A stretch of 22,428 bases of DNA from a virus, in the IMG/VR virus record IMGVR_UViG_3300044634_001528, positions 1 to 22,428 of that record, one strand, 5' to 3'. How positions within the stretch are numbered: the first letter of the stretch is position 1; each line of letters starts with the position of its first letter. Shown here in pieces: positions 11,995 to 21,802 of the stretch. Both the position numbers and the translations under genes were made by a program. The notes under the pieces are model-generated. The model worked only from the letters and a program-made list of their open reading frames with translations, was not told the DNA's origin and did no database searches.

Positions 11995-13099
11995 AAGAAT
12001 AATCAATCATCAAGTGAGTAGGATACACTTTACCGGCTGACTTACTTCTAAGATTAATTTTAAATGTGTATACAGGAGTGGTTATGATAATATCAATTCT
12101 TTTGGCGGTCACAGGACCGGTACCTCCTCCGCTCACTCCACCATAATAAGCAATAGCCCTAGTTACCTTTGTTGCTTTTGTTAAATAATCTTTGGTCATT
12201 TCGTTATCTTTGATGTTCTGACCTAAAAGATGTACCATATGATAACCATATCCTATACCACTCTTTAAGAAGTTTTGAAAGGATGCTTGATCCATCTTTT
12301 GTGTAACATCTTCTTTAAACTTATTCATAGAAGTATTGTTAGCATAAGCATTGAATGTTTTTATAAATTTAGCTTCATCAAGTCCTAGCATTTTCAAAAG
12401 AGCTTTACCCTTAGTACCAGTAAATTTCCCAGTCTTAAATTCTCTTTCTGGAAATAGTGTAGAAATACCTGGGTTAGCAAATGTCACTGTTGGACCAAAT
12501 TTCAATGAAAGGTAAATAGTTTTTCCTTTAAGACTTCTTCCTCCAGCTTTTGTTGCTCCCTCTACTGTTACGTCTGTTACTGTGGCACCTATGTTAAAAT
12601 CTCTGCCTCCAATGAACACCTCATTACCCATAAACTGTAGAGGTCTCTTTTGGTTTAATTCGCCCATAGGAAGAACTTTGTCTAGATAGGTTAATTTATA
12701 GTAAGCAACAAACTCTTTAATGAACTTATCGTTTTTTGTATCTCTAATAGGTTCGCCTTTTATGTAGAGATTAATATCTCTTACAAGATCAACTTCAAAC
12801 TTTATTCCTTTATTTACGGTGGCAGTAGTTCCTCCAACCTTTCTGCTGCCTTCACCCCAAGAAAGTTTAAGTGACGGTGCTCCTATCTCTTTTTTAATCT
12901 TTTTTAGGTCAAGCCCTGAGAGTCTTCGGGTTACTTTTATATCACCTGCCTCGGAATCGTGTAATACGATCGGATCGTTTACCGATGGATTCGTTTTGGC
13001 AAAGTATTCCATCAAGGCCACAATGCCATCGAAGTATTGCCTATGTAGTGTTTTCGTCCTAAGCTCTTTTTCACTCTTAGGGACATAAGTATACGCCAT
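11987..13099 (-). CDS. Late-type gene; possible PD-(D/E)XK-fold protein
   Basis: The 370-residue product is unidentified by name. One stretch is suggestive: NKGIKFEVDLVRDI (Glu102), then Asp176 in GATVTDVTV, then IYLSLKFG with Lys200, followed by TVTFANPGI. Helix-Glu, strand-Asp and strand-x-Lys is the order of the PD-(D/E)XK nuclease core. The second acidic residue is replaced by Ser198, so catalysis is uncertain. The C-terminal part is basic and strand-rich. The start at 13099 has AAAGGAG upstream; an in-frame ATG at 13126 lies between that and the promoter. With an exact TATAAATA about 28 nt upstream, it is probably expressed late. A structural protein is the main alternative. Confidence 0.75.
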   Translation of the reverse strand: MAYTYVPKSEKELRTKTLHRQYFDGIVALMEYFAKTNPSVNDPIVLHDSEAGDIKVTRRLSGLDLKKIKKEIGAPSLKLSWGEGSRKVGGTTATVNKGIKFEVDLVRDINLYIKGEPIRDTKNDKFIKEFVAYYKLTYLDKVLPMGELNQKRPLQFMGNEVFIGGRDFNIGATVTDVTVEGATKAGGRSLKGKTIYLSLKFGPTVTFANPGISTLFPEREFKTGKFTGTKGKALLKMLGLDEAKFIKTFNAYANNTSMNKFKEDVTQKMDQASFQNFLKSGIGYGYHMVHLLGQNIKDNEMTKDYLTKATKVTRAIAYYGGVSGGGTGPVTAKRIDIIITTPVYTFKINLRSKSAGKVYPTHLMIDYSYV

Positions 13100-13126
13100 T
13101 TTTGTAACTCCTTTGTTTTTATACAC

Positions 13127-13134
13127 TATTTATA
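13127..13134 (-). promoter_or_regulatory. T4-type late promoter (TATAAATA)
   Basis: On the minus strand this octamer is exactly the T4 late consensus TATAAATA, which is read by gp55-type sigma with the sliding clamp. It lies about 28 nt before the ATG of the minus-strand 370-residue gene, leaving room for a transcript start near 13115 and the AAAGGAG ribosome site. No -35 box is needed for this promoter type. Location, strand and spacing all fit. Confidence 0.65.
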
Positions 13135-13150
13135 TAAACAATAACACCTA

Positions 13151-13221
13151 TAAGTCATTGATCTCATTGACAAAAGAAATTTCAAATAATGCTTGACTTT
13201 TCAGAAAAACCATGTTATTAT
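13151..13221 (+). promoter_or_regulatory. Early promoter module, copy 1
   Basis: TTGACT (13193-13198) and TATTAT (13216-13221) are spaced 17 bp apart, with TG one base before the -10 (extended -10). Upstream, 42 nt from TAAGTCATTGAT to the -35 are shared with copies at 13265, 17149, 19166 and 20746. The A-rich AAAAGAAATTTCAAATAA part resembles a UP element. Downstream lies the shared leader ATAAACTGATGAAAA. Confidence 0.85.
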
Positions 13222-13250
13222 GTTCGCATAAACTGATGAAAAGAGCAAAA

Positions 13251-13310
13251 ATGCACACAAACCGTAAGTCATTGATTTCATTAGTAAAAGAAATTTCAAA
13301 TAATGCTTGA
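13251..13310 (+). CDS. Possible 19-residue leader peptide
   Basis: A short frame (MHTNRKSLISL then VKEISNNA) starts after the GAAAAGAGC leader of promoter copy 1, at the same position where copies at 18271 and 20746 start real genes. Its coding sequence is mostly the upstream element of promoter copy 2 and its stop lies within that copy's -35 box. It may be a remnant of a gene replaced by a second promoter module, or a translated leader. It is too short to judge by codon use. Confidence 0.35.
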   Translation: MHTNRKSLISLVKEISNNA

Positions 13311-13335
13311 CTTTTTCAAAAAACTAGTGTATAAT
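13265..13335 (+). promoter_or_regulatory. Early promoter module, copy 2
   Basis: TTGACT (13307-13312) and TATAAT (13330-13335) have a 17-bp spacer. The 42-nt upstream element is nearly identical to that of copy 1, which lies 114 bp upstream, making a tandem promoter pair. The leader TATAAACTGAAAAAC and an AGAGG ribosome site precede the ATG at 13369. Confidence 0.9.
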
Positions 13336-13368
13336 ACTTGTATAAACTGAAAAACACAGAGGATTAAC

Positions 13369-13647
13369 ATGGTCGAATACACTTTACAAGTTTTCAAAGC
13401 TGATCACCGTACAAAAACGGGTGACCGCTTGTTCACTACAATGTCAATAATGGCAAAGGATGATAATCAAATGCGTGGTATTGTTGCTGCGTACTTTGAT
13501 ATGTATTCGCCAGATCAAGGTTGGAGATACGAATGGTGTCCCGCTAAAAGAACTGTTAAGAATTTGATGACAGGCAAAGATGTTGAAATAGATCATGACA
13601 CACCTTGGTGTTGTAATCCTTCTTCTGAAACTTATTGGAGTATGTAA
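13369..13647 (+). CDS. Small early protein, unknown function
   Basis: The 92-residue protein is not recognised. It opens with a strand-like stretch (VEYTLQVFKADHR) and has a middle helix. The C-terminal half is rich in Trp, Cys and Pro (WRYEWCP, then PWCCNPSSETYW). No signal peptide or membrane segment is present. It is the first gene after the tandem promoter pair, so it should be strongly expressed right after infection. Its stop overlaps the next ATG by one base (TAATG). Confidence 0.75.
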   Translation: MVEYTLQVFKADHRTKTGDRLFTTMSIMAKDDNQMRGIVAAYFDMYSPDQGWRYEWCPAKRTVKNLMTGKDVEIDHDTPWCCNPSSETYWSM

Positions 13648-13862
13648 TGATGAAAAAAATAAACAAGCGTCACGGTGGTCCTTATGATCGTGGTTCAGCA
13701 GATGGTTACTATGGTCGCGATCCGATTCCTCACTATTTTGTAGGTGAGACTTACACTTCCGCCATCGTTGAACAACTGCATATGAGCAAAGGTGATATTG
13801 CCCTTTATATGCAAGGTTATTCTGATCAAATTGAATCTGGTGTGAGGAAATATAATGTTTGA
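13647..13862 (+). CDS. Small conserved phage protein with GGPYDRGSADGYYGR motif
   Basis: The 71-residue protein contains GGPYDRGSADGYYGR, then PHYF and TYTS, and ends with YMQGYSDQIESG. I recall this pattern from small proteins found in many large phages, always without an assigned function. I start at ATG 13647, six bases after TTGGAG (13635-13640) and overlapping the previous stop; a longer start at 13635 would lie inside that site. It overlaps the next gene by 8 nt. Confidence 0.78.
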   Translation: MMKKINKRHGGPYDRGSADGYYGRDPIPHYFVGETYTSAIVEQLHMSKGDIALYMQGYSDQIESGVRKYNV

Positions 13863-14214
13863 TTCTTTTAGTGCTCGTGCTACAACCTCTCTGACTGGTT
13901 CGCGCCTTTCGAATTGGGAAATGTCAAATGGTATGGATCGTCATGAATTGGCAAATGCCAAATCTATCTTGGAAAGATTTGATACCAATCGCAAGATTGT
14001 TAACTTCAAATCTACTACATTGAGCAATATTTTGCGAAGTGATAAACTCATATCTTTTGATATGCTTGCGCGTAATGTTATTGAAGAAAAGGTTTTTGAT
14101 AGAAATGCTCCATGTGAGGTAGGTTCATCTGGTAAATATCGCATTCTCAAAATAGAAGGCAAGCGTTTCTTGCAAATTGGTACTACCTATTTTGGTGAGG
14201 TTGACGATGATTAA
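13855..14214 (+). CDS. Unknown 119-residue early protein
   Basis: No family is recognised. The N-terminal part is Ser/Thr/Arg-rich, the middle is helical (NAKSILERFDTNRKIV), and the C-terminal third looks like a small beta unit (KYRILKIEGKRFLQIGTTYFGEV). It begins within the end of the previous gene and overlaps the following peptidase-like gene by 8 nt, so it belongs to the operon driven by the promoters at 13151-13335. Confidence 0.72.
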   Translation: MFDSFSARATTSLTGSRLSNWEMSNGMDRHELANAKSILERFDTNRKIVNFKSTTLSNILRSDKLISFDMLARNVIEEKVFDRNAPCEVGSSGKYRILKIEGKRFLQIGTTYFGEVDDD

Positions 14215-14722
14215 TATCTATATCAAAGGCGGTACTAAAACACAGCAACGAGTCACTGATGAAGCGGCCCGTGTTTTTATTAAGCAATTACTACCGCGCA
14301 AAAGAACTCTAAACATAGATATTACCATTCGAAATACTCTAATAGAAAATGCTGCTGGTTACTGTACTCATGAAGACAGGGATCAATTTCATGTCGAGTT
14401 GCACAACCGAGGTACTTTGTTTGATTACTTGTCTTTTTTAGCACATGAATTGGTACACGTAAAACAATATAGCAATCGTGAACTGGTAAACAAGTCTTAC
14501 AAGTCCTACTGGATGGGTGTAGATTATTCTGATGTCGCGTACTCTAAACTTCCATGGGAAAAAGAAGCATGGTCTTCACAGTATCCAATGTCAAAAAATT
14601 ACATTAAAAACAATCTAGGCATGACTTTTGTTAAGGCTAAAAACACTTCACCAAGAACCATGAAAAAAATCAATTGGGACATTGAGTGTAAGATATTAGA
14701 GGCTACATGTGATGCCCAGTAG
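14207..14722 (+). CDS. Zinc-metallopeptidase-like protein (HELVH)
   Basis: The 171-residue protein has HExxH in AHELVHVKQY (His80-Glu81 to His84), the zinc-binding motif of metallopeptidases. PWEKEAW (Glu118 or Glu120) offers a third zinc ligand about 35 residues later. Small phage proteins of this kind are often annotated as SprT- or ImmA-like, but the sequence around the motif does not settle the family. Possible targets are host regulators or phage proteins; none is shown. I start at 14207 (MINIYIKGG), which has GTGAGG upstream and overlaps the previous stop; the extra 10 residues from 14177 are unlikely. There is no signal peptide, so it should act in the cytoplasm. Confidence 0.78.
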   Translation: MINIYIKGGTKTQQRVTDEAARVFIKQLLPRKRTLNIDITIRNTLIENAAGYCTHEDRDQFHVELHNRGTLFDYLSFLAHELVHVKQYSNRELVNKSYKSYWMGVDYSDVAYSKLPWEKEAWSSQYPMSKNYIKNNLGMTFVKAKNTSPRTMKKINWDIECKILEATCDAQ

Positions 14723-14766
14723 CAGACAGCGACAAGAGTTGCAAAATTACAGGAAAAATATAGAAA

Positions 14767-15381
14767 ATGCGTATGATGAAGAACGGAAAAGAAAAAATAA
14801 TATTGACGGACGTAGATGGAGTTTGTCTAGACTGGGAGTTTGGCTTTCACACTTGGATGTCCGTACATGGACACGAATTGGTAGACAAGGACAATTACAG
14901 TGTAGCAATACAATACAATGTGGAATTTCCAAAAGCAAAGTCTCTCATAAGGACGTTTAATGAATCGGCAGCGGTAGGATTCTTGCCTCCTCTTCGTGAT
15001 GCACAGTACTACATTAAAATGCTGCACGAAAAATACCAGTATCAGTTTATTGCAATTACCAGTTTGTCATTAGATCCTCACGCTCAGAAGTTGCGAGAGA
15101 GAAATCTATCTAAGATTTTCGGACCGAATACATTTAAGGAAGTTGTGTTTCTTGATTGTGGTGCTGATAAGGACGAGGTACTATCATTGTACGGTTCTCG
15201 TTATTCTGATCATATTTGGGTAGAAGACAAAAAGCAAAATGTTGATGTCGGTATAGCATGTGGTCTCAAAGGACTTTTGATGGAACACGCGCACAATATG
15301 GACTACACTGGTCCCGCTAAAGTTGTTAAAAATTGGGAAGAGATATATAAATATTATATCAAATTAAATTATCGAGGTTAA
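14767..15381 (+). CDS. HAD-superfamily phosphatase-like protein
   Basis: The 204-residue protein opens with the HAD motif I, ILTDVDGVCLDW (Asp15 and Asp17). Later it has ITSLS, a candidate motif II (Thr/Ser), and HIWVEDKKQNVDVG followed by a Gly-rich end, matching the acidic motif IV. Phage HAD proteins of this size include 5'(3')-deoxyribonucleotidases and polynucleotide phosphatases. The nucleotide context makes dNMP or DNA-end phosphate a plausible substrate, but this is inference. ATGs at 14767, 14773 and 14776 are all possible starts and no strong ribosome site decides between them. A TATAAATA lies inside the 3' end (15346-15353). Confidence 0.75.
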   Translation: MRMMKNGKEKIILTDVDGVCLDWEFGFHTWMSVHGHELVDKDNYSVAIQYNVEFPKAKSLIRTFNESAAVGFLPPLRDAQYYIKMLHEKYQYQFIAITSLSLDPHAQKLRERNLSKIFGPNTFKEVVFLDCGADKDEVLSLYGSRYSDHIWVEDKKQNVDVGIACGLKGLLMEHAHNMDYTGPAKVVKNWEEIYKYYIKLNYRG

Positions 15382-15382
15382 T

Positions 15383-15553
15383 ATGACAGATGCTACAGTT
15401 GCCTTTTTAAAGAATCTTCTTGACCCTGAAGTGTACGGTCTTGCTGTTACAGCAGAAATCCGTGATGAGGCTAGAAAACTATTGGGTATGCCTACAGTTG
15501 AAACGCCTTGTGTCAAATGTGGAAGCATGACTAACATATGCGGAAATGATTGA
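15383..15553 (+). CDS. Small Cys-containing protein
   Basis: This 56-residue frame begins MTDATVAFLKNLL and has a C-terminal CVKCGSMTNIC, which could be a small zinc knuckle with three Cys visible. CGAGG at 15373-15377 gives a ribosome site at good distance, and the gene follows the HAD gene directly. From memory, phage miniproteins with an N-terminal helix and a CxxCG tail are common. A TATAAATA at 15346-15353 would put a late transcript start just ahead of it, though that octamer also encodes Tyr-Lys-Tyr and may be chance. Confidence 0.65.
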   Translation: MTDATVAFLKNLLDPEVYGLAVTAEIRDEARKLLGMPTVETPCVKCGSMTNICGND

Positions 15554-15562
15554 TATTATTTC

Positions 15563-15591
15563 TTGACTTTTTAATAACCGTAGTGTATAAT
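15563..15591 (+). promoter_or_regulatory. Early promoter (diverged family member) before the ParB-nuclease gene
   Basis: TTGACT (15563-15568) and TATAAT (15586-15591) have a 17-bp spacer, and the -10 context AGTGTATAAT equals that of the module copies. The long upstream element is absent or diverged here (only TGATATTATTTC precedes), as is the usual leader. A TATGGTG at 15611-15617 lies before the ATG at 15626. Confidence 0.8.
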
Positions 15592-15625
15592 CAGTTATAC
15601 AATCAAATATTATGGTGATATTATT

Positions 15626-16951
15626 ATGCAAAAAATATCTTTAGGTGGTGGTGTTTTTTTTAATTGCAACAGCAACACAAACTACACATTGCTTCCCATA
15701 GAATCCGTAGTCGTTATTCCGCTTAATGAAAGTCTCCGAGTGGGCAGAGGTAGCCCATCGTTTTATTCCTCAATTAAACAAGACGGTCTTGATGAACCAT
15801 TAAAGGTCTATAAGAATAGCAAATTTATTATATCTGGTAATGGCAGGTACGAAGTGCTTACGGACCTCGGTGCTACGCATGTTCCTGTTATTTACATAGA
15901 ACGCACAGAAGAAATGAATAAGTCTTTTGATGAACAGAATGAAATTGATCTTTGGCATCCAGACGTTAAGGACGCACTCACTACAGCAAATATGCGAGAC
16001 CCGGTAAAAACTATCGGCTATTATACATTGCTCAGGAAATGGATGTTAAACAAAGAAGGATACTCCTTTGAACAACCAGCAATTGATTTTCTTGGCAATA
16101 AAAAAAGCATTGAAACTTACATAAAACAAAGCAAAATAGCAATATCATATGCTGACTTTGAAGCAATCGAAGGACTTAGATTCGGATGCAAAATACGATT
16201 CGAAGGCAAGACACATCACGTATCTCCCCGCGTTGAATTATATGATGACTTATCCAACACAGACAAAAATCGTGAAGAGTTTACGCCTAAAAAAGCTAGA
16301 AAAGCACAGTTAGATGATTACAAGGAACAATCAGGTGTAAACTATTCTAAAAATGCTGAGATGGCTAATTTATTCACAAGTATGGATATAAATAAGGTAT
16401 TGCTTGAGGTACAGGAAAAGTTCCTTGACGTACAGAACAGCAGCAACGGAAACAGATATGATATTAACTGGTTTAATTCTCTAGAACCAGCAGCAGTTTC
16501 AAACATTGTACATTCAATGGTTGTTTCCTTCACCACAGCCGAATTGAAAAATACGTTGAAAAAATTGAACAGTAACTACACTGCCGAAGCGTCAATAAAT
16601 CAAAGCACGTATGATATTCATATAAAGAATGCAAAAGGAAATCTCATCAATACCCTTGAAATCAAAACCACCTGTGACTCATCAAAAAACGGATGGACAA
16701 CAAAAACAAAGAAAGGAGGTTACGCACTTTTCATTGAGTATAACCGCGAAAATACTCACTACTTTGCCGCCCTCGCATATTTGGAAAACCTTGATTGGAA
16801 AAAAGCAGGACCTTACAATAGCAATATAAAAGCAGAAAAACTGAACGAAAGGGCTCTCAAAGTTTATCAGGGCGAAATACATCTCAACAACAGCAAATGG
16901 GTAGTCGCACCAAAAAAACTTGAACAAACAAAAATAGCTTTAGCGGCATAA
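15626..16951 (+). CDS. ParB-like domain fused to a PD-(D/E)XK nuclease-like domain
   Basis: The 441-residue protein has a ParB/Srx-like N-terminal domain (about 24-93). It carries VVVIPLNESLRVGRGSPSF, DGLDEPLKVY and the ParB-type box SGNGRYEVLTDLGATHVPV. A middle helical region (95-300) is unassigned. The C-terminal domain has YDIHI (Asp330) and LEIKTT (Glu345, Lys347), then KGGYALFIEYN. The 15-residue spacing and strand context fit the D-(x)n-E-x-K core of restriction-type nucleases. This would make a DNA-binding or NTP-using domain joined to a nuclease, perhaps for breaking host or rival DNA. The function is inference; the domain calls rest on motifs only. It has its own promoter and is probably expressed early. 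Confidence 0.72.
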   Translation: MQKISLGGGVFFNCNSNTNYTLLPIESVVVIPLNESLRVGRGSPSFYSSIKQDGLDEPLKVYKNSKFIISGNGRYEVLTDLGATHVPVIYIERTEEMNKSFDEQNEIDLWHPDVKDALTTANMRDPVKTIGYYTLLRKWMLNKEGYSFEQPAIDFLGNKKSIETYIKQSKIAISYADFEAIEGLRFGCKIRFEGKTHHVSPRVELYDDLSNTDKNREEFTPKKARKAQLDDYKEQSGVNYSKNAEMANLFTSMDINKVLLEVQEKFLDVQNSSNGNRYDINWFNSLEPAAVSNIVHSMVVSFTTAELKNTLKKLNSNYTAEASINQSTYDIHIKNAKGNLINTLEIKTTCDSSKNGWTTKTKKGGYALFIEYNRENTHYFAALAYLENLDWKKAGPYNSNIKAEKLNERALKVYQGEIHLNNSKWVVAPKKLEQTKIALAA

Positions 16952-16973
16952 TATCTTACAAAGGAATAGCACT

Positions 16974-17159
16974 ATGATCAAATCAATGTTTAACTATATC
17001 ACAAAACCCACGTTAAGCGTATTCGAATTCGTGAGCATCGGTACTCTCATTATGCTCATCGCAGCAAACCAATGGATACTCGCAATCGTCATATTCCCGG
17101 TCACTTTCATCATTCAGACAGTAGCATCATTCAAACAACAGCAAAACGTAAGTCCTTGA
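16974..17159 (+). CDS. Small two-helix membrane protein
   Basis: The 61-residue protein has two hydrophobic segments (about 16-32 and 34-51) with a short basic N-terminus and a polar Gln-rich tail. AAAGGAA precedes the ATG. It follows the ParB-nuclease gene and is likely cotranscribed. Its codons are C-richer (ATC, CTC, GCA) than the replication genes at the left. The stop codon falls within the upstream element of the promoter module at 17149. The function is unknown; small phage inner-membrane proteins often act in exclusion or lysis control. Confidence 0.7.
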   Translation: MIKSMFNYITKPTLSVFEFVSIGTLIMLIAANQWILAIVIFPVTFIIQTVASFKQQQNVSP

Positions 17160-17219
17160 TTTCATTGAAAAAAGAAATTTTAAATAATGCTTGACTTTTC
17201 CAAATAACCATGCTATAAT
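17149..17219 (+). promoter_or_regulatory. Early promoter module, copy 3
   Basis: TTGACT (17191-17196) and TATAAT (17214-17219) have a 17-bp spacer and TGC before the -10 (extended -10). The 42-nt upstream element begins TAAGTCCTTGATTTC. The leader TATAAACTAAAAAC and AAAGGAAAAC precede the ATG at 17255. Confidence 0.9.
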
Positions 17220-17254
17220 ACTCATATAAACTAAAAACTTAAAGGAAAACAATC

Positions 17255-17686
17255 ATGAAAGCATTAAGTGTAATCGGTCTCGCAATACCCTTTCTTCTCT
17301 TGTCAAGCATAGCATCAGCAGAGGACATCAACGCAAAGGTAGTACACACGAACGCCGTCTTTCAAAACCAAGCGCATCAAACCGCCGGATCATGCACTCC
17401 ACGCAGAAGCATCGGTGGTACTCTTATAGGCGGTGCAATCGGTGCAGCACTCGGTAATCAAGTAGGCGGCGGATCAGGACAAGATATTGCAACAGCAGTA
17501 GGAGCAGTAACAGGCGCCGCAATCGGACAAAACGTAGCACAAAATTGTGTCGGCAACGTCACTTACGTCCAAACAATTCTTTACTATGAAATTACCGTAG
17601 AAGTAAACGGAAGTCTTCATACAGTACAGCGACAATACAGTCCAGCAATCGGTAGCTATATACCGGTGAATATCACCGTGTTCTGA
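17255..17686 (+). CDS. Exported glycine-zipper protein
   Basis: The 143-residue protein has a clear Sec signal peptide (MKALSVIGLAIPFLLLSSIASA, likely cleaved before Glu-Asp). A glycine-zipper segment follows (about 54-95), with GGTLIGGAIGAALG and GAVTGAAIGQNV, as in the 17-kDa surface-antigen / 2TM glycine-zipper family. The C-terminal 45 residues are strand-like (YYEITVEVNGSL). Two Cys (Cys47 and Cys98) could form a periplasmic disulfide. There is no lipobox, so it should be periplasmic or inserted in the outer membrane. Bacterial homologues are envelope proteins; in a phage it may be a host-derived gene used for superinfection exclusion or envelope change (inference). Codon use is G/C-richer than in the core genes. 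It has its own promoter module. Confidence 0.82.
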   Translation: MKALSVIGLAIPFLLLSSIASAEDINAKVVHTNAVFQNQAHQTAGSCTPRRSIGGTLIGGAIGAALGNQVGGGSGQDIATAVGAVTGAAIGQNVAQNCVGNVTYVQTILYYEITVEVNGSLHTVQRQYSPAIGSYIPVNITVF

Positions 17687-17691
17687 AACAC

Positions 17692-17759
17692 CCCCCGCGT
17701 CTCGCGAAACCCTAAGCACCGTTTAGGGCATCAATTACACCATTCAGCGAGCGCGGGGG
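17692..17759 (+). other. GC-rich branched RNA structure after the glycine-zipper gene
   Basis: CCCCCGCG (17692-17699) pairs with CGCGGGGG (17752-17759), and after a bulged T, CTCGC (17701-17705) pairs with GCGAG (17747-17751). This gives 13 base pairs. Inside, CCCTAA (17710-17715) pairs with TTAGGG (17723-17728) as a second hairpin. No U-tract follows, so it is not a standard intrinsic terminator. It may protect or end the upstream message, or be a structured small RNA. It stands out in AT-rich surroundings. Confidence 0.6.
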
Positions 17760-17786
17760 ACTTTAATTTATTATGTAGGAGTTAAG

Positions 17787-18062
17787 ATGCCAATGATTCA
17801 GCAGGAGATTACATTCTTCTGGCCTCTTACTGAGCAAATACCTTTAGATTTAATCTATGAGGGCTGTAATAAGCCATTGCCTCTTGTGTCATCCAGCGTC
17901 CTCCTTATTAGCAATGGTGGTACATTATGTACAACAAGTAATACAATGCAACACACCACCATTAACTGTGATCAAATAAGTTTTCAAACAAAGAAAAAGC
18001 AAACATTCTTACAGCGGTTAATGTATAAAGCTATGGGAATTAAAGTACAAGTTGTTAAATAA
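17787..18062 (+). CDS. Unknown 91-residue protein
   Basis: The protein is not recognised. It has a hydrophobic/aromatic N-terminal stretch, a Ser/Thr/Cys-rich middle and a basic C-terminus (KKKQTFLQRLMYKAMG). No membrane helix or signal peptide is convincing. TAGGAGTTAAG gives a good ribosome site before the ATG. It lies between the GC-rich RNA structure and the repeat-rich gene-free stretch, and no promoter of its own is visible, so it may depend on read-through from 17219. Confidence 0.65.
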   Translation: MPMIQQEITFFWPLTEQIPLDLIYEGCNKPLPLVSSSVLLISNGGTLCTTSNTMQHTTINCDQISFQTKKKQTFLQRLMYKAMGIKVQVVK

Positions 18063-18096
18063 CCATTAACACCCTGAATGAAATTATGTGAGCAAT

Positions 18097-18148
18097 GACT
18101 CAGGGCTGACTCAGGGCTGACTCAGGGCTGACTCTGGGCTGACTCTGG
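18097..18148 (+). repeat. Tandem 11-bp repeat, 4.7 copies
   Basis: The unit GACTCAGGGCT is repeated at 18097, 18108 and 18119. A variant unit, GACTCTGGGCT, is at 18130, and a partial GACTCTGG at 18141. An inverted fragment, CCCTGA, lies about 25 nt upstream (18072-18077). The period of 11 places each unit close to one helical turn apart, which suits cooperative protein binding. The gene-free stretch from 18063 to 18382 holds this array, the 30-bp direct repeats and a promoter. Confidence 0.85.
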
Positions 18149-18195
18149 TAGGAAACTTTACCTGAATTGCATTTTTGACAGGAACCCAGTATAGA

Positions 18196-18266
18196 GTTGG
18201 TGTAATTACGCTAAATATTGGCGGTTTTGACCAATTGTTGGTGAATTTTACTAACTATTGGTCGGT
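18196..18266 (+). repeat. Pair of 30-bp imperfect direct repeats
   Basis: Copy 1 is at 18196-18225 and copy 2 at 18237-18266, with a 41-bp period. Both contain GTTGGTG, AATT, CTAA, TATTGG and a closing CGGT at matching positions. Between and within them ACCAAT and ATTGGT form short inverted repeats. They look like iteron or operator sites and end a few bases before the promoter module at 18271. Confidence 0.75.
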
Positions 18267-18270
18267 CCTG

Positions 18271-18350
18271 TAAGTTATTGATATGCTTAGAGTAATATTT
18301 TCTGGTTTACCGCAAATAATGCTTGACTTTTCCGAAAAACAGTGTATAAT
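18271..18350 (+). promoter_or_regulatory. Early promoter module, copy 4 (diverged upstream part)
   Basis: TTGACT (18323-18328) and TATAAT (18345-18350) are 16 bp apart. The module start TAAGTTATTGAT (18271) is kept, but the distance from it to the -35 is 52 nt instead of 42 and the middle has diverged. CAAATAATGC before the -35 and the leader TATAAATTGATGAAAA are conserved. It drives the gene at 18383. Confidence 0.85.
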
Positions 18351-18382
18351 AGTACTATAAATTGATGAAAAGGCGTAGCAAG

Positions 18383-18592
18383 ATGGTCACAGTACAGGAA
18401 ATCACTAGTTTCAAGAGCAAAATTTACAGCCTTGCTATGATGAAAGCGGTGAAATCGGTTGCTAATGTCAAGCGGCAGGCGCTGGCTAGGTTCTCCGTGG
18501 AGAACGAAGACACTCAGCAGTGGATTGCTGACATGTGGTTCGGAAGATGCGCCAGAAAGTCTTACCAGGACGTGGTTGTGGTACTGTCCTGA
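18383..18592 (+). CDS. Small basic early protein, unknown function
   Basis: The 69-residue protein is helical and basic (SFKSKIYSLAMMKAVKSVANVKRQALARF), followed by a Trp-containing polar part and a hydrophobic end. The family is not recognised. I place the start at ATG 18383 (MVTVQEI), after the AAAGGCG of the shared leader. The ATG at 18365 falls inside the conserved leader, in which other module copies have no functional start. A DNA-binding role is conceivable from the charge but is not shown. Confidence 0.65.
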   Translation: MVTVQEITSFKSKIYSLAMMKAVKSVANVKRQALARFSVENEDTQQWIADMWFGRCARKSYQDVVVVLS

Positions 18593-18619
18593 GTGATTTA
18601 TAATGATAAGGAGTGAGAA

Positions 18620-18844
18620 ATGATTACTACTAAACAAGTTCGTAGCATTATGCGAAATCATAACATCAGCACTATCTACACTAATAAAAACAAAAACAGT
18701 CACACTGTCAAGTGCTATATGCCTCGTGACGCGCAAGCTTTGCTGAACGATATTAAACAGCAAGTAAGTGCTGATAATATCAAGATTTCTAACATAAGCT
18801 ATCATAAGATTCCTAGCATTATAGTTACGTGTATTAAAGCGTAA
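18620..18844 (+). CDS. Small basic protein, unknown function
   Basis: The 74-residue protein begins MITTKQVRSIMRNHNI, a short helix, followed by a polar loop with NKNKNSHTVKCYMP, a helix (DAQALLNDIKQQV) and a strand ending IIVTCIKA. It resembles, from memory, small alpha-beta phage proteins with no assigned role. AAGGAG lies at a good distance from the ATG. It is probably cotranscribed with the preceding gene from the promoter at 18323-18350. Confidence 0.68.
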   Translation: MITTKQVRSIMRNHNISTIYTNKNKNSHTVKCYMPRDAQALLNDIKQQVSADNIKISNISYHKIPSIIVTCIKA

Positions 18845-18869
18845 TTAGCAAAAAAAAGGCTTGACTTTC

Positions 18870-18910
18870 GCTCTACAGAAAGTTTCAGATACTGTAATTT
18901 TCTGTAGAGC
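18870..18910 (+). repeat. Perfect 12-bp inverted repeat overlapping a tRNA-like D arm
   Basis: GCTCTACAGAAA (18870-18881) is the exact reverse complement of TTTCTGTAGAGC (18899-18910), with a 17-nt loop. The right arm contains GTAGAGC, the expected end of a tRNA D loop plus the 3' side of the D stem. A TTGACT (18861-18866), the -35 of the promoter family, lies just upstream, but no good -10 follows at normal spacing. Confidence 0.85.
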
Positions 18911-18961
18911 AGCGGACTCATAATCCGTTGGTACCGTGTTCGACTCACGGGAGGCCCACCA
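18904..18961 (+). pseudogene. 3' half of a CAT-anticodon tRNA (Met or Ile2), 5' half missing
   Basis: From the D-loop end (GTAGAGC) onward the sequence is a normal tRNA. The anticodon arm is GCGGA-CTCATAA-TCCGT (anticodon CAT), followed by a short variable loop, the T arm CCGTG-TTCGACT-CACGG, the acceptor 3' strand GAGGCCC and then ACCA. A matching acceptor 5' strand (GGGCCTC) should lie about 10 nt before the D stem, but the sequence there is TTGACTTTC, which cannot pair. The 5' part appears to be replaced by an inverted copy of the D-arm region. It is either a decayed tRNA gene or an unusual tRNA-like RNA. Confidence 0.75.
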
Positions 18962-18968
18962 AATTAAA

Positions 18969-19045
18969 CGGAATGTAGCTCAGTCTGGTAGAGCACTTGC
19001 TTTGGGAGCAGGAGGTCCGAGGTTCAAATCCTTGTATTCCGACCA
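18969..19045 (+). tRNA. tRNA-Pro (TGG)
   Basis: The cloverleaf is complete: acceptor CGGAATG pairs with TATTCCG (one G-T), the D arm is GCTC...GAGC, the anticodon arm CTTGC-TTTGGGA-GCAGG has anticodon TGG, the T arm is GAGG-TTCAAAT-CCTT with a wobble pair, and ACCA is encoded. The C1-G72 acceptor end is typical of bacterial tRNA-Pro. It lies 7 nt after the tRNA fragment. Confidence 0.92.
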
Positions 19046-19111
19046 ATTAATGCAGTAAATATACACGGGTTACGGTTTACCCCCATTTTCTCGTAAAAAC
19101 CGAGTCTTTTT

Positions 19112-19144
19112 GCCCCTAAGATCATATCAAAGGGGCGTTTTTTT
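19112..19144 (+). terminator. Intrinsic terminator after the tRNA gene
   Basis: GCCCCT (19112-19117) pairs with AGGGGC (19131-19136) and is followed by GTTTTTTT. It would end the tRNA transcript. A weaker CTCG...CGAG hairpin with a TCTTTTT tail lies just before it. Confidence 0.82.
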
Positions 19145-19165
19145 GCTCTTTTTACGCCTTTTTCG

Positions 19166-19236
19166 TAAGTCATTGATAAGTATAGCAAAAGAAATTTAAA
19201 ATAATACTTGACTTTTGCAAAAAACTCGTGTATAAT
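19166..19236 (+). promoter_or_regulatory. Early promoter module, copy 5
   Basis: TTGACT (19208-19213) and TATAAT (19231-19236) have a 17-bp spacer. The 42-nt upstream element starts TAAGTCATTGAT. The leader TATAAACTGAAAAACGAGAG runs to the ATG at 19269. It stands directly after the terminator at 19144. Confidence 0.9.
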
Positions 19237-19268
19237 ACTTGTATAAACTGAAAAACGAGAGAAAAAAC

Positions 19269-19427
19269 ATGTGGCAAGTGTATATAGTTCAGTCAGATGG
19301 GTACGAAACTTGGCGTCGTCCAGTAGACGGTGAACTGTTCGCTACTCAAGCCGAAGCTGACGCCCGAGCTGATTATCTGGACCGTTGGTGCTTTCCAGGC
19401 GACTATCACACTGTAGATGAGGAATAA
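19269..19427 (+). CDS. Small early protein, unknown function
   Basis: The 52-residue protein begins MWQVYIVQSDGYETWRRP, likely a beta pair, followed by an acidic Ala-rich helix (QAEADARADYLDRW) and a short tail. I recall similar small phage proteins of no known function. The ATG at 19269 follows GAGAG of the promoter leader. An in-frame TTG at 19239 would start within the promoter itself and is rejected. It is the first gene of a cluster of short genes driven by promoter copy 5. Confidence 0.7.
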   Translation: MWQVYIVQSDGYETWRRPVDGELFATQAEADARADYLDRWCFPGDYHTVDEE

Positions 19428-19429
19428 AA

Positions 19430-19603
19430 ATGACATACGAAACGAATCCCCGTGATTACGCACTAGAACTGGTTGACGCCGGAGTGATTGATCCAACAAC
19501 AATGCTGCTAGCAGCTCTCAAGTATATGAGTTCTGCGGATGTTGCTGAAATGCTTGACATGAACGAAATGAGTCCACGTTTTTCCGAAGAGGATGCTGTA
19601 TGA
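19430..19603 (+). CDS. Small conserved phage protein (MTYETNPRD ... NEMSPRF)
   Basis: This 57-residue frame begins MTYETNPRDYALELVDAGVI, has an Ala/Met-rich helix with LAALKYMSSADVAEMLD, and ends NEMSPRFSEEDAV. From memory, the pairing of an N-terminal NPRD with a C-terminal DVxxMLxxNExSPRF recurs in small proteins of many large phages; no function is known. It starts 2 nt after the previous gene, with GAGG as ribosome site, and overlaps the next start by 4 nt (ATGA). Confidence 0.75.
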   Translation: MTYETNPRDYALELVDAGVIDPTTMLLAALKYMSSADVAEMLDMNEMSPRFSEEDAV

Positions 19604-19779
19604 TTACTGTTAAATTTTATGTGAAGTCTGAAACCTACCAATTCACCGCTGAGTCTGTTTGGAAAGCCATGGAGATGTGCAACCGTCAGGTGATTGACAA
19701 GTTGGACTTGCACCCCATGTCTTGGGCTGAAGCTGGTAGGAATGCGTATACGTGTGTTGGCGGTAACTTGTTTGATTAA
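19600..19779 (+). CDS. Small early protein, unknown function
   Basis: The 59-residue frame starts MITVKFYVKSETYQF, suggesting a short beta hairpin, then a helix (ESVWKAMEMCNRQVIDKL) and a polar C-terminus. No family is recognised. Evidence for coding is the ATGA overlap with the previous gene, an uninterrupted frame, and a normal 9-nt gap to the next gene. A GAAGAGG (19586-19592) upstream may serve as its ribosome site. Confidence 0.65.
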   Translation: MITVKFYVKSETYQFTAESVWKAMEMCNRQVIDKLDLHPMSWAEAGRNAYTCVGGNLFD

Positions 19780-19788
19780 GGAAATAAT

Positions 19789-20193
19789 ATGAGAGTAATT
19801 ACAGTAGAGAAGTTGTTGTCTCGCTATGAGTCAGACATCCGTGGTAAAGAAGAGAAGATTGCCAAGTTTGCTGAGGCTGTCCAGAAGGACCCTGCATATA
19901 CTCTGTCCTGGTCCCAGGATGTATTTGCAGCTGCTGCGGAGATTAAGATTCTTAAGCAGGTACGCGATTACCTGATCCATGAAGTAGATTATGCAGTAGA
20001 TGCTCCGGTATCGAACTTAATTGACATGCTAACAAGCAAGGTGATTAATGGTGCTATGTATCCTTCCTTCAGCAGCAGTATTACTAGTAATCTGATCAGC
20101 AAGTATGAGACAGCATCAGCTGCATTGATACTGAATAATCTTAGATGCATGGTTGTCGTCTTCGCCGACATGAATTCAGGAGAAGCACAATGA
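19789..20193 (+). CDS. Unknown 134-residue helical protein
   Basis: The protein is almost entirely helical: MRVITVEKLLSRYESDI, a charged helix with KEEKIAKFAEAVQK, an Ala-rich helix (DVFAAAAEIKILKQVRDYL), and a Ser-rich segment before the last helix. No catalytic motif or membrane segment is seen and I do not recognise the family. AAGGAAATA precedes the start. Its stop overlaps the start of a 25-residue membrane peptide gene (ATGA). Confidence 0.72.
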   Translation: MRVITVEKLLSRYESDIRGKEEKIAKFAEAVQKDPAYTLSWSQDVFAAAAEIKILKQVRDYLIHEVDYAVDAPVSNLIDMLTSKVINGAMYPSFSSSITSNLISKYETASAALILNNLRCMVVVFADMNSGEAQ

Positions 20194-20267
20194 AAGAGTT
20201 TTTTTCGATGGTGGCGGTGCTGCTGATCGCCTTCGTGATTGGCTTGCTGATGGTAGCGTCACTGTGA
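20190..20267 (+). CDS. 25-residue single-helix membrane peptide
   Basis: The frame encodes MKEFFSMVAVLLIAFVIGLL plus MVASL, one transmembrane helix with a short charged N-terminus. It starts at ATGA overlapping the previous stop, with AGGAGA about six bases upstream, which is good support for translation. Function unknown; it resembles the micro-membrane proteins common in phage early regions. Confidence 0.65.
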   Translation: MKEFFSMVAVLLIAFVIGLLMVASL

Positions 20268-20296
20268 GAAACCTACGGAAAAGGTTGTTTGGTGAT

Positions 20297-20389
20297 ATGA
20301 CCAATAGAGAAATCATATTAGAAGCCCTCAATGCTGGCGCACATATTGTGCTGATTTATCTGCTAGTCTTTTTGGTTCTGAGTTGGTGA
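20297..20389 (+). CDS. Short membrane peptide with C-terminal helix
   Basis: The 30-residue frame starts MTNREIILEALNAGA and ends in a hydrophobic helix (IVLIYLLVFLVLSW). A GTG at 20264, overlapping the previous stop as GTGA, opens the same frame 11 codons earlier with a basic stretch (RNLRKRLFGD), and may be the real start. Ribosome sites are weak for both. The function is unknown. Confidence 0.5.
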   Translation: MTNREIILEALNAGAHIVLIYLLVFLVLSW

Positions 20390-20532
20390 GAAACCCAGCA
20401 TTACGACTATGGATGAGTAAACAGGGGTGTACCTATATAAGGGGATATACCTCAGCGTCACCTTTCTTAGTCAATATTGAATTTTTTTTTCCGGAAATTT
20501 TTTCCGTGCAAAACATGAGTGTAGAAACATGA
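20386..20532 (+). CDS. Possible 48-residue frame
   Basis: A GTG at 20386 overlaps the previous stop (GTGA) and opens an uninterrupted frame (GTG-RNPALRLWMSKQG...) that ends as ATGA at the next gene. Support is only this pair of 4-nt overlaps; composition is unremarkable and no ribosome site is clear. Otherwise this stretch is non-coding and contains a T-run and a small CGGAAA-TTTCCG hairpin near 20491-20506. Confidence 0.3.
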   Translation: MRNPALRLWMSKQGCTYIRGYTSASPFLVNIEFFFPEIFSVQNMSVET

Positions 20533-20699
20533 TTGCATCAGGTACTGTATTGTTGTTTATAAGTTTTGTTGTAGACTCTCTGTGGAATGTAAGCCGCTTT
20601 TCTGAAGCTATGCAAAAGGTAGTCGGCTGGGCTACGCTGATCGGCGCTACGCTGATTGTAGCTGGAGTGGCTACTCTATTATGGAAGTACTTACCATAA
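20529..20699 (+). CDS. Small two-helix membrane protein
   Basis: This 56-residue frame has a first hydrophobic helix (MIASGTVLLFISFVVDSLW), a polar loop with SRFSEAMQK, and a second helix (ATLIGATLIVAGVATLLW) ending KYLP. From memory, small phage membrane proteins of this layout, ending in W-x-Y-x-P, occur in several large phages with unknown function. The start is an ATGA overlap with the short frame ahead of it. A 15-bp hairpin follows 19 nt after the stop. Confidence 0.7.
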   Translation: MIASGTVLLFISFVVDSLWNVSRFSEAMQKVVGWATLIGATLIVAGVATLLWKYLP

Positions 20700-20717
20700 G
20701 AAAACTGATAATCGTTT

Positions 20718-20759
20718 AAAATCAATGACTTAGGGGGGCTTCTTCTAAGTTATTGATTT
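20718..20759 (+). repeat. Hairpin formed by an inverted copy of the promoter-module start
   Basis: AAATCAATGACTTAG (20719-20733) pairs with CTAAGTTATTGATTT (20745-20759) over 15 bp with one G-T pair and a G-rich loop. The left arm is an inverted copy of the TAAGTCATTGATTT sequence that begins the early promoter modules; the right arm is the start of copy 6. It may end transcription of the micro-membrane cluster, although no U-tract follows. Confidence 0.7.
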
Positions 20760-20815
20760 CCTTAGCAAAAGAAATTTGAAATAATGCTTGACTTTTCTGA
20801 AAAATAGTGTATAAT
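20746..20815 (+). promoter_or_regulatory. Early promoter module, copy 6
   Basis: TTGACT (20788-20793) and TATAAT (20810-20815) are 16 bp apart. The 42-nt upstream element TAAGTTATTGATTTCC... is intact. The leader TATAAACTAATGAAAAGGGC leads to the ATG at 20846. Confidence 0.9.
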
Positions 20816-20845
20816 ACTTGTATAAACTAATGAAAAGGGCAAAAA

Positions 20846-21016
20846 ATGAGTAAAAATGTGAGTTTGAAGTTGAATTTTGAAGAAGTTGCGTTACTTCGTG
20901 CTGTACTGTACGAATACTACTCAGAAAACGACTATATGTGTAATGATGAGAGAAAAACACATCAATCCTTAGAAGAAATCCTTGCTGATGCTGAAGATTC
21001 TTTCGTATTTGAGTAA
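20846..21016 (+). CDS. Small acidic early protein, unknown function
   Basis: The 56-residue frame begins MSKNVSLKLNFEEVALLRAV and continues as a charged helix with acidic C-terminus (SLEEILADAEDSFVFE). The position relative to the promoter leader (GAAAAGGGC then ATG) is the same as for the gene at 18383, which supports the start. No family recognised; a small acidic protein that binds a host enzyme is one possibility. The next promoter starts at its stop codon. Confidence 0.68.
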   Translation: MSKNVSLKLNFEEVALLRAVLYEYYSENDYMCNDERKTHQSLEEILADAEDSFVFE

Positions 21017-21023
21017 ATAATGC

Positions 21024-21052
21024 TTGACTTTTCGTGAAATACGTGCTATTAT
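21024..21052 (+). promoter_or_regulatory. Early promoter module, copy 7 (core only)
   Basis: TTGACT (21024-21029) and TATTAT (21047-21052) are 17 bp apart, with TGC before the -10 (extended -10). Only AAATAATGC of the upstream element remains, since the preceding gene runs up to it. The leader CATATAAACACTGAAGAGAG leads to the ATG at 21086. Confidence 0.88.
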
Positions 21053-21085
21053 ACTCATATAAACACTGAAGAGAGAAAAGAAAAT

Positions 21086-21442
21086 ATGACTTACCGAGTT
21101 TACCAGCTTAAGATTGCAAGAGAAGTGTACGATTACGTCAATGAAGTCGGACACGTTGCCGCCGCTGTTAAATACCCTGAATATAAGATTTCAATGGACA
21201 TTCGCTTTCAAGGTTCTGCTAAGTGGGAACCATCAATGTTTGCCTACTTTACCCCCGTGTGTGAAATTGCCGCTAGTGACTTAGATGAAGTATTTCATGT
21301 CGGTAATGTCGGTCCTGAAGCAAAAATAGTTCGCCTTGACCGTATGCATTCTGTCAGCGTCGGCGATATCATCCAAGATCCAACCGGTGAGTTTCACATG
21401 GTTGACGATTTCGGTTTCAACAAAATTCAAGTTAAAGGATAA
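21086..21442 (+). CDS. Conserved small phage protein (SVSVGDII motif)
   Basis: The 118-residue protein starts MTYRVYQLKIAREVYDYVNE and has a C-terminal part with DRMHSVSVGDIIQDPTGEFH followed by VDDFGF. From memory this pattern (a YxxYQLK start, an MHSVSVGDVI core and a final GF) is widespread in small proteins of large phages and some plasmids; function is unknown. Promoter copy 7 and an AGAGAGAAAAG leader lie directly upstream, and the next gene follows after 6 nt. Confidence 0.78.
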   Translation: MTYRVYQLKIAREVYDYVNEVGHVAAAVKYPEYKISMDIRFQGSAKWEPSMFAYFTPVCEIAASDLDEVFHVGNVGPEAKIVRLDRMHSVSVGDIIQDPTGEFHMVDDFGFNKIQVKG

Positions 21443-21448
21443 AATATT

Positions 21449-21802
21449 ATGACACCATCAGTAATCCGTATGATTGTAGACGAAGCACAGGCGGCTGCTA
21501 AAAAAGCGTCCGTTTATTATCTGACCGAGACTCTTGGCGGAGATGACAAGTACCCTTGTGGTTTCGCTTGGTTGGATGTGTACAAGATGAACGGAGAGAA
21601 GATCCGTGCGAATAGTAAAGTAGGTAAGGCGCTTGCTTTGTGTGGCATTACCAAGAATGCTTACGAAGGTACCATGCAATGGTGGAACCCTAGTGATCTT
21701 CCTGTGCAGAATGTTGATTGTAAATACGCGGGTGCGCGGGCTGCTCAAGAAGTGTTTGCCAAATACGGTTTCACTGCATACGCTGGGCAAAGGTGGGATT
21801 AA
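21449..21802 (+). CDS. Conserved small phage protein (NPSDLPVQN / YAGQRWD)
   Basis: The 117-residue protein contains CGFAWLDVYKMNG, TMQWWNPSDLPVQNVD and the C-terminal KYGFTAYAGQRWD. From memory these segments recur in a family of unknown function in many large phages. Conserved Trp, Asn-Pro and Gln-Asn suggest a defined binding or catalytic site but none is assigned. The stop overlaps the next start as TAATG. Confidence 0.78.
   Translation: MTPSVIRMIVDEAQAAAKKASVYYLTETLGGDDKYPCGFAWLDVYKMNGEKIRANSKVGKALALCGITKNAYEGTMQWWNPSDLPVQNVDCKYAGARAAQEVFAKYGFTAYAGQRWD

Follow-up and report, generated by a model that had tools for sequence, protein, structure and literature searches.

Domains of the ParB fold occur together with nucleases and methylases in conflict systems (PMC5512222, PMC4619093, PMC12704722), and in a survey of their partners HNH, UPF0020, DUF3850, DUF4417 and methylase domains were common (PMC12704722). 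In phage polyvalent proteins, ParB-like DNases occur without other DNase domains (PMC5512222). Mutational work indicates that an R-to-A substitution in the P-motif abolishes NTP binding in the tested homologues, and the same source warns that the choice of nucleotide is not predictable from sequence (PMC12704722). ParB/Srx domains are now recognised as general NTP-binding modules with many fusion partners, and it is the use that phages make of them that is at issue here.

The gene described below lies in a virus record that was analysed at its full length of 22,428 bases (hereafter, the window) and that has the appearance of a T4-like phage fragment, with genes among others for a primase, ThyX, ribonucleotide reductase, dCMP deaminase and an RNase H/exonuclease-type protein. 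A single open reading frame (ORF) encodes a 441-aa protein within an open frame of 455 codons, for which the chance expectation at the given base composition is about 6e-16 (Table 1). Third-codon-position T amounts to 40% in residues 1–110, 26% in the remaining residues and 41% in phage core genes, the drop in the rest of the gene having a Fisher p of 0.008 within the gene and of 1.6e-7 against the core. This codon bias hints at a mosaic gene, and it is only a hint because a similar bias is seen in the resident gene at 17255. The coding strand of window positions 16001–18000 is A/C-rich (that is, GC skew is negative) relative to other plus-strand genes.

Table 1. Coordinates of the features at the locus (window positions)
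Feature	Position	Strand	Evidence or remark
441-aa protein gene	15626..16951	+	ParB/Srx, middle region, PD-(D/E)XK-like segment; single ORF, ATG at 15626, stop at 16951; ORF listing, translation
ParB/Srx domain, about residues 20–100	15683..15925	+	phrog_620, profile A1, plasmid ParB HMM
C-motif-like (box I) loop GLDEP, residues 54–58	15785..15799	+	sequence, alignment
P-motif (box II) SGNGR, residues 70–74	15833..15847	+	alignment A3
Middle region, about residues 101–280	15926..16465	+	possible helix-turn-helix at about 147–170, by eye alone
Candidate PD-(D/E)XK core, residues 303–387	16532..16786	+	motif, sub-threshold NOV_C match, low-confidence models
Promoter TTGACT-17-TATAAT	15563..15591	+	sigma-70-type, drives the 441-aa gene
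Swapped segment	15556..17181	+	L003 and L004 collinear to about 15555 and from 17182
61-aa small membrane-protein-like ORF	16974..17159	+	22 nt downstream of the 441-aa gene, same swapped segment

On the basis of profile comparisons, the N-terminus is a genuine ParB/Srx domain. Residues 48–98 match phrog_620 (ParB-like) at E = 3.4e-8, with further ParB and ParB–methylase PHROGs ranking behind, and a hidden Markov model made solely from eight plasmid ParBs matches residues 48–96 at E = 6.6e-6 (one target); Pfam ParB_N matches the single sequence weakly (E = 0.11). When the ParB domain was used as a tblastn query against the phage collection, ParB-domain proteins of Arthrobacter, Curtobacterium and Streptococcus phages were recovered at about 30–48% identity, and a profile of the 441-aa protein and ten of these matches, anchored on the ParB domain (A1), matches solved Spo0J/ParB, Noc, sulfiredoxin and SerK chains (best E = 1.5e-13). 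As A1 includes ten other sequences, this last evidence concerns the family as a whole. The ParB/Srx N-terminus proposed in the first-pass annotation is therefore well beyond chance by phrog_620, A1 and the plasmid ParB model, and the SGNGRYEVL box that it named lies at residues 70–78. Both motifs of the NTP pocket are present, namely a P-motif GxxR (SGNGR), whose G71 and R74 are invariant in alignment A3, and a C-motif loop (GLDEP) that resembles loops such as GLQEP, found among CTP binders (PMC12704722). Arg74 is predicted to contact the NTP phosphate, and the domain to be nucleotide-binding.

The C-terminal segment is probably a PD-(D/E)XK domain. The residues D330, E345 and K347 stand exactly where the first-pass annotation had placed them, and the spacing of YDI (D330) and LEIK (E345, K347) is that of a PD-(D/E)XK core, the placement of these residues on strands coming from low-confidence models only. 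The best Pfam match is NOV_C (PF13020), a PD-(D/E)XK family, at E = 0.018 with the full-length protein and 0.002–0.014 on sub-segments chosen post hoc; across these searches the score was 15.6–18.6 bits and did not reach the curated cut-off of 22.1 bits. The alignment is nearly gapless, pairs residues 310–355 with profile positions 12–56 of 91 and includes D330 and E345-x-K347. It vanishes if the searched segment begins only at residue 326 or is cut off at residue 343, and therefore needs both the part that precedes the motif and the ExK strand. In six-frame control scans of nine plasmids (about 2.1 Mb) and 39 viral records (about 2.2 Mb), there was no other NOV_C match at E ≤ 1. Given about 0.018 chance matches per protein and a PD-(D/E)XK clan that makes up about a hundred of 24,736 models, a chance match to this clan would be expected about once in 10,000 proteins.

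Structure prediction was unusable because no homologues were found: single-sequence AlphaFold2 models had a mean pLDDT of 31 for the full protein and 38 for residues 280–441. At this low confidence, the models have an alpha-beta-beta-beta order, and the candidate core runs helix, strand, strand (D330), strand (E345-I-K347) and later strands, but no clear second helix follows E345-x-K347 before the strand predicted next, which counts against the nuclease reading. Foldseek searches with the low-confidence model of residues 280–441 returned noise (best E = 0.19 in the PDB and 0.05 among viral structures), and these best matches were not nucleases. The PD-(D/E)XK C-terminus suggested earlier is thus weakly confirmed, by the motif and by a NOV_C match that covers the triad and falls below its cut-off.

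In the middle region, no credible match was found in Pfam, NCBIfam, PHROG or the PDB. An alignment by eye of residues 123–170 as a ParB-type helix-turn-helix was unsupported by Pfam, NCBIfam, the PDB search and hhalign, and we regard the matches to endoglycosidase H and RNA polymerase in NCBIfam and to MetOD2 in Pfam as due to chance.

The gene is an orphan in the 50,697 phages, 72,556 plasmids and related viral records searched. By tblastn, the middle region and C-terminus had no match in the 50,697 phage records at E ≤ 10, nor had the C-terminus in the 72,556 plasmids at E up to 10. None of the related viral records matched either, whether found through a neighbouring gene (11), through a downstream gene (9) or mostly through NrdB (47 more, two of them already among the other 20); since many of these records are fragments, absence from any single one says little. 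Neither exact-peptide scans, in which the protein as a whole and in parts was run against viral and genome contigs, nor a degenerate DNA pattern for ISGNGRYE(V/A) gave a match, and these nulls are weak because such scans demand exact short matches. The tblastn nulls are stronger than the exact scans, the whole-record searches of the relatives having been run without a positive control of their own. One match at E = 2 to residues 297–360, in records L015–L022, was rejected, as it left D330 and ExK unaligned and belongs to an ORF of another kind. Among the T4-like and related records searched, it holds that this architecture, which the first-pass annotation did not know from T4-like phages, is absent.

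Two relatives span the site of the gene, L003 with 94–98% identical DNA in long collinear blocks and L004 with 86–91%. Between the collinear flanks, L003 has about 2.4 kb (L003:9232-11640) and L004 about 1 kb (L004:10789-11778) of other genes, and because both relatives carry unrelated genes there, the 441-aa gene occupies a swap site. Two contigs that share 99.9% identity with the window, L002 and L005, break off shortly before the site, at 15400 and 15314 respectively, a pattern that polymorphism of the site in the population would fit. By eye, the genes of L003 and L004 at the site include sulfotransferase/P-loop-like and hydrolase-type ORFs; ORFs of 187 and 181 aa there, P-loop/sulfotransferase-like by eye, share YYVYSPHGRTGSWRLCKM near their start. 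The 441-aa gene thereby also marks, within a T4-like lineage, an early-gene swap site that may harbour other conflict genes.

The 61-aa ORF that follows, possibly co-transcribed with the 441-aa gene, has no match in L003 or L004; it is 29% identical (E = 0.1) to an ORF at L021:9801-9974 that adjoins the same downstream lipoprotein-like gene. Upstream, a 204-aa ORF at window positions 14767–15381 (phrog_420, weakly HAD-like) has relatives at 48–100% identity in 11 viral contigs and is a useful lineage marker for the phage. Within the 22-kb fragment we noticed neither a protecting methylase gene nor one for base modification, which speaks against an endonuclease. Further downstream, a short tandem repeat of about five copies of TGACTC(A/T)GGGC lies at 18096–18147, and positions 18905–18965 are 87% identical to tRNA-Met of Acinetobacter phage ZZ1, possibly a decayed tRNA; near there, ARAGORN called tRNA-Pro at 18969–19045 alone.

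A strong sigma-70-type promoter of its own precedes the 441-aa gene and indirectly supports the earlier claim that it is an early gene. This promoter is one of six 11/12 promoters on the plus strand of the region 12900–21500, compared with 0.2 ± 0.5 in shuffled sequence. Promoter-bearing repeats of about 50–110 bp (AATAATGCTTGACTTTT...TATAATAC), about 75–93% alike, lie upstream of many small genes, with copies at window positions 13151–13350, 17142–17246, 18313–18372, 19164–19271 and 20746–20845; in the relatives, the right-hand boundary of the swap site falls within one such early-type repeat.

We tentatively favour, at just under even confidence, a reading in which the gene encodes an accessory endonuclease, made early by the phage, with an NTP-binding ParB/Srx domain that governs its cutting domain and with non-self DNA as its target. 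We infer NTP gating, target and role as follows. Judging from its host-type promoter, the gene would be transcribed soon after infection. The ParB/Srx domain, assigned by homology, may then use its GLDEP loop and SGNGR pocket to bind an NTP, and binding or hydrolysis of the nucleotide could alter DNA engagement or the dimer state, as ParB would suggest. The PD-(D/E)XK-like domain would probably cut DNA with a divalent metal through D330, E345 and K347. The target may be the host chromosome, plasmids or co-infecting phages, and we suggest non-self DNA because the gene is optional and sits in a swap site. The fuller proposal of a new class of phage weapon is doubtful: an NTP-gated ParB-type DNA-binding module and a PD-(D/E)XK cutter would form one chain, encoded in an early-gene slot whose content is swapped rapidly, and would attack the DNA of the host or of rival phages.

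The main rival to the endonuclease reading is a ParB-family NTP-binding regulator or DNA-binding protein, the C-terminus of which would have another fold or be a degenerate, DNA-binding PD-(D/E)XK domain rather than an active nuclease. We consider this unlikely, with D330 and E345-x-K347 correctly spaced and inside the weak NOV_C match; in its favour are the sub-threshold score of that same match, the pLDDT of 31–38 and the C-terminal homologues that were not found, together with the occurrence of NTP binding across diverse ParB fusions (PMC12704722). The C-terminal part of full-length relatives found through the ParB domain is an N6/N4 methylase, DUF4417 or nothing recognisable; many phage ParB-domain proteins are standalone or fused to domains that are not nucleases, and a role other than that of a nuclease would place the protein in common company.

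Two further readings keep the nuclease and change its purpose, and both seem improbable. In one, the gene is selfish and encodes a free-standing homing-type endonuclease, which would cut relatives that lack the gene so that repair copies it in. T4-like phages carry many homing-type endonuclease genes, this phage has the gene whereas relatives with 86–98% identity around the site lack it there, and the near-identical L002 and L005 stop just short of the site, as if it were polymorphic; however, L003 and L004 have other genes there and no empty site, Pfam and PHROG gave no match to a homing-endonuclease family, and the 441-aa protein is longer than usual for such enzymes, of which its ParB domain is also atypical. 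SegB of T6 is an example of the homing-type genes of such phages (PMC13096335). The other is a modification-dependent (type IV-like) enzyme in which the ParB/Srx domain and the middle region would sense modified DNA of competitor phages and trigger the nuclease, as in GmrSD/SspE, and it draws on the functional parallel with ParB/Srx-fold restriction enzymes (PMC4619093, PMC13251355). Against this, the Pfam search of the 441-aa protein gave neither DUF262 nor DUF1524/HNH, the pocket reads SGNGR and not DGQHR, and no modified-base reader domain was detected; of the comparison with GmrSD made at first pass, the functional parallel alone survives.

Several known systems resemble the 441-aa protein in part. 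Canonical ParB, Spo0J, Noc and KorB share its N-terminal ParB fold; they also have a ParA partner, a ParB helix-turn-helix and a C-terminal dimer domain, none of which was recognised for the 441-aa protein, in which HTH_ParB had no match, and no ParA-like product was noticed among the window genes scanned, so that it does not qualify as a canonical ParABS component. In GmrSD/SspE-type enzymes, too, a single chain couples a ParB/Srx-fold NTPase to a nuclease by way of a long linker (PMC4619093), a layout that the 441-aa protein shares with a putative nuclease; those enzymes combine DUF262 (DGQHR) with HNH (DUF1524) (PMC4619093), whereas the present protein combines another ParB branch (SGNGR) with a PD-(D/E)XK-like motif. 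NOV_C/DUF3883 (PF13020) is the closest family for the C-terminus, through a weak match limited to about half of its profile. The phrog_940 'nuclease' family (ParB–DUF4417) is similar in total length and its ParB/Srx N-terminus matches residues 43–99, but a full-length member ends in DUF4417 (E = 4e-27) and the resemblance is confined to the ParB domain. The ParB/Srx–N6/N4 methylase fusions of Streptococcus phage Javan486 and Faecalibacterium phage FP_Lagaffe (about 390–445 aa) have the same class of N-terminal domain and a C-terminal PF01555 methylase, in place of which the 441-aa protein has its PD-(D/E)XK-like segment. A non-exhaustive literature search turned up no account of a ParB–PD-(D/E)XK fusion. 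If the nuclease is real, this would be a fusion with a clear readout (that is, DNA cutting and its NTP dependence), a testable case of NTP-gated attack on DNA by a phage, and a new combination among known ParB–effector fusions.
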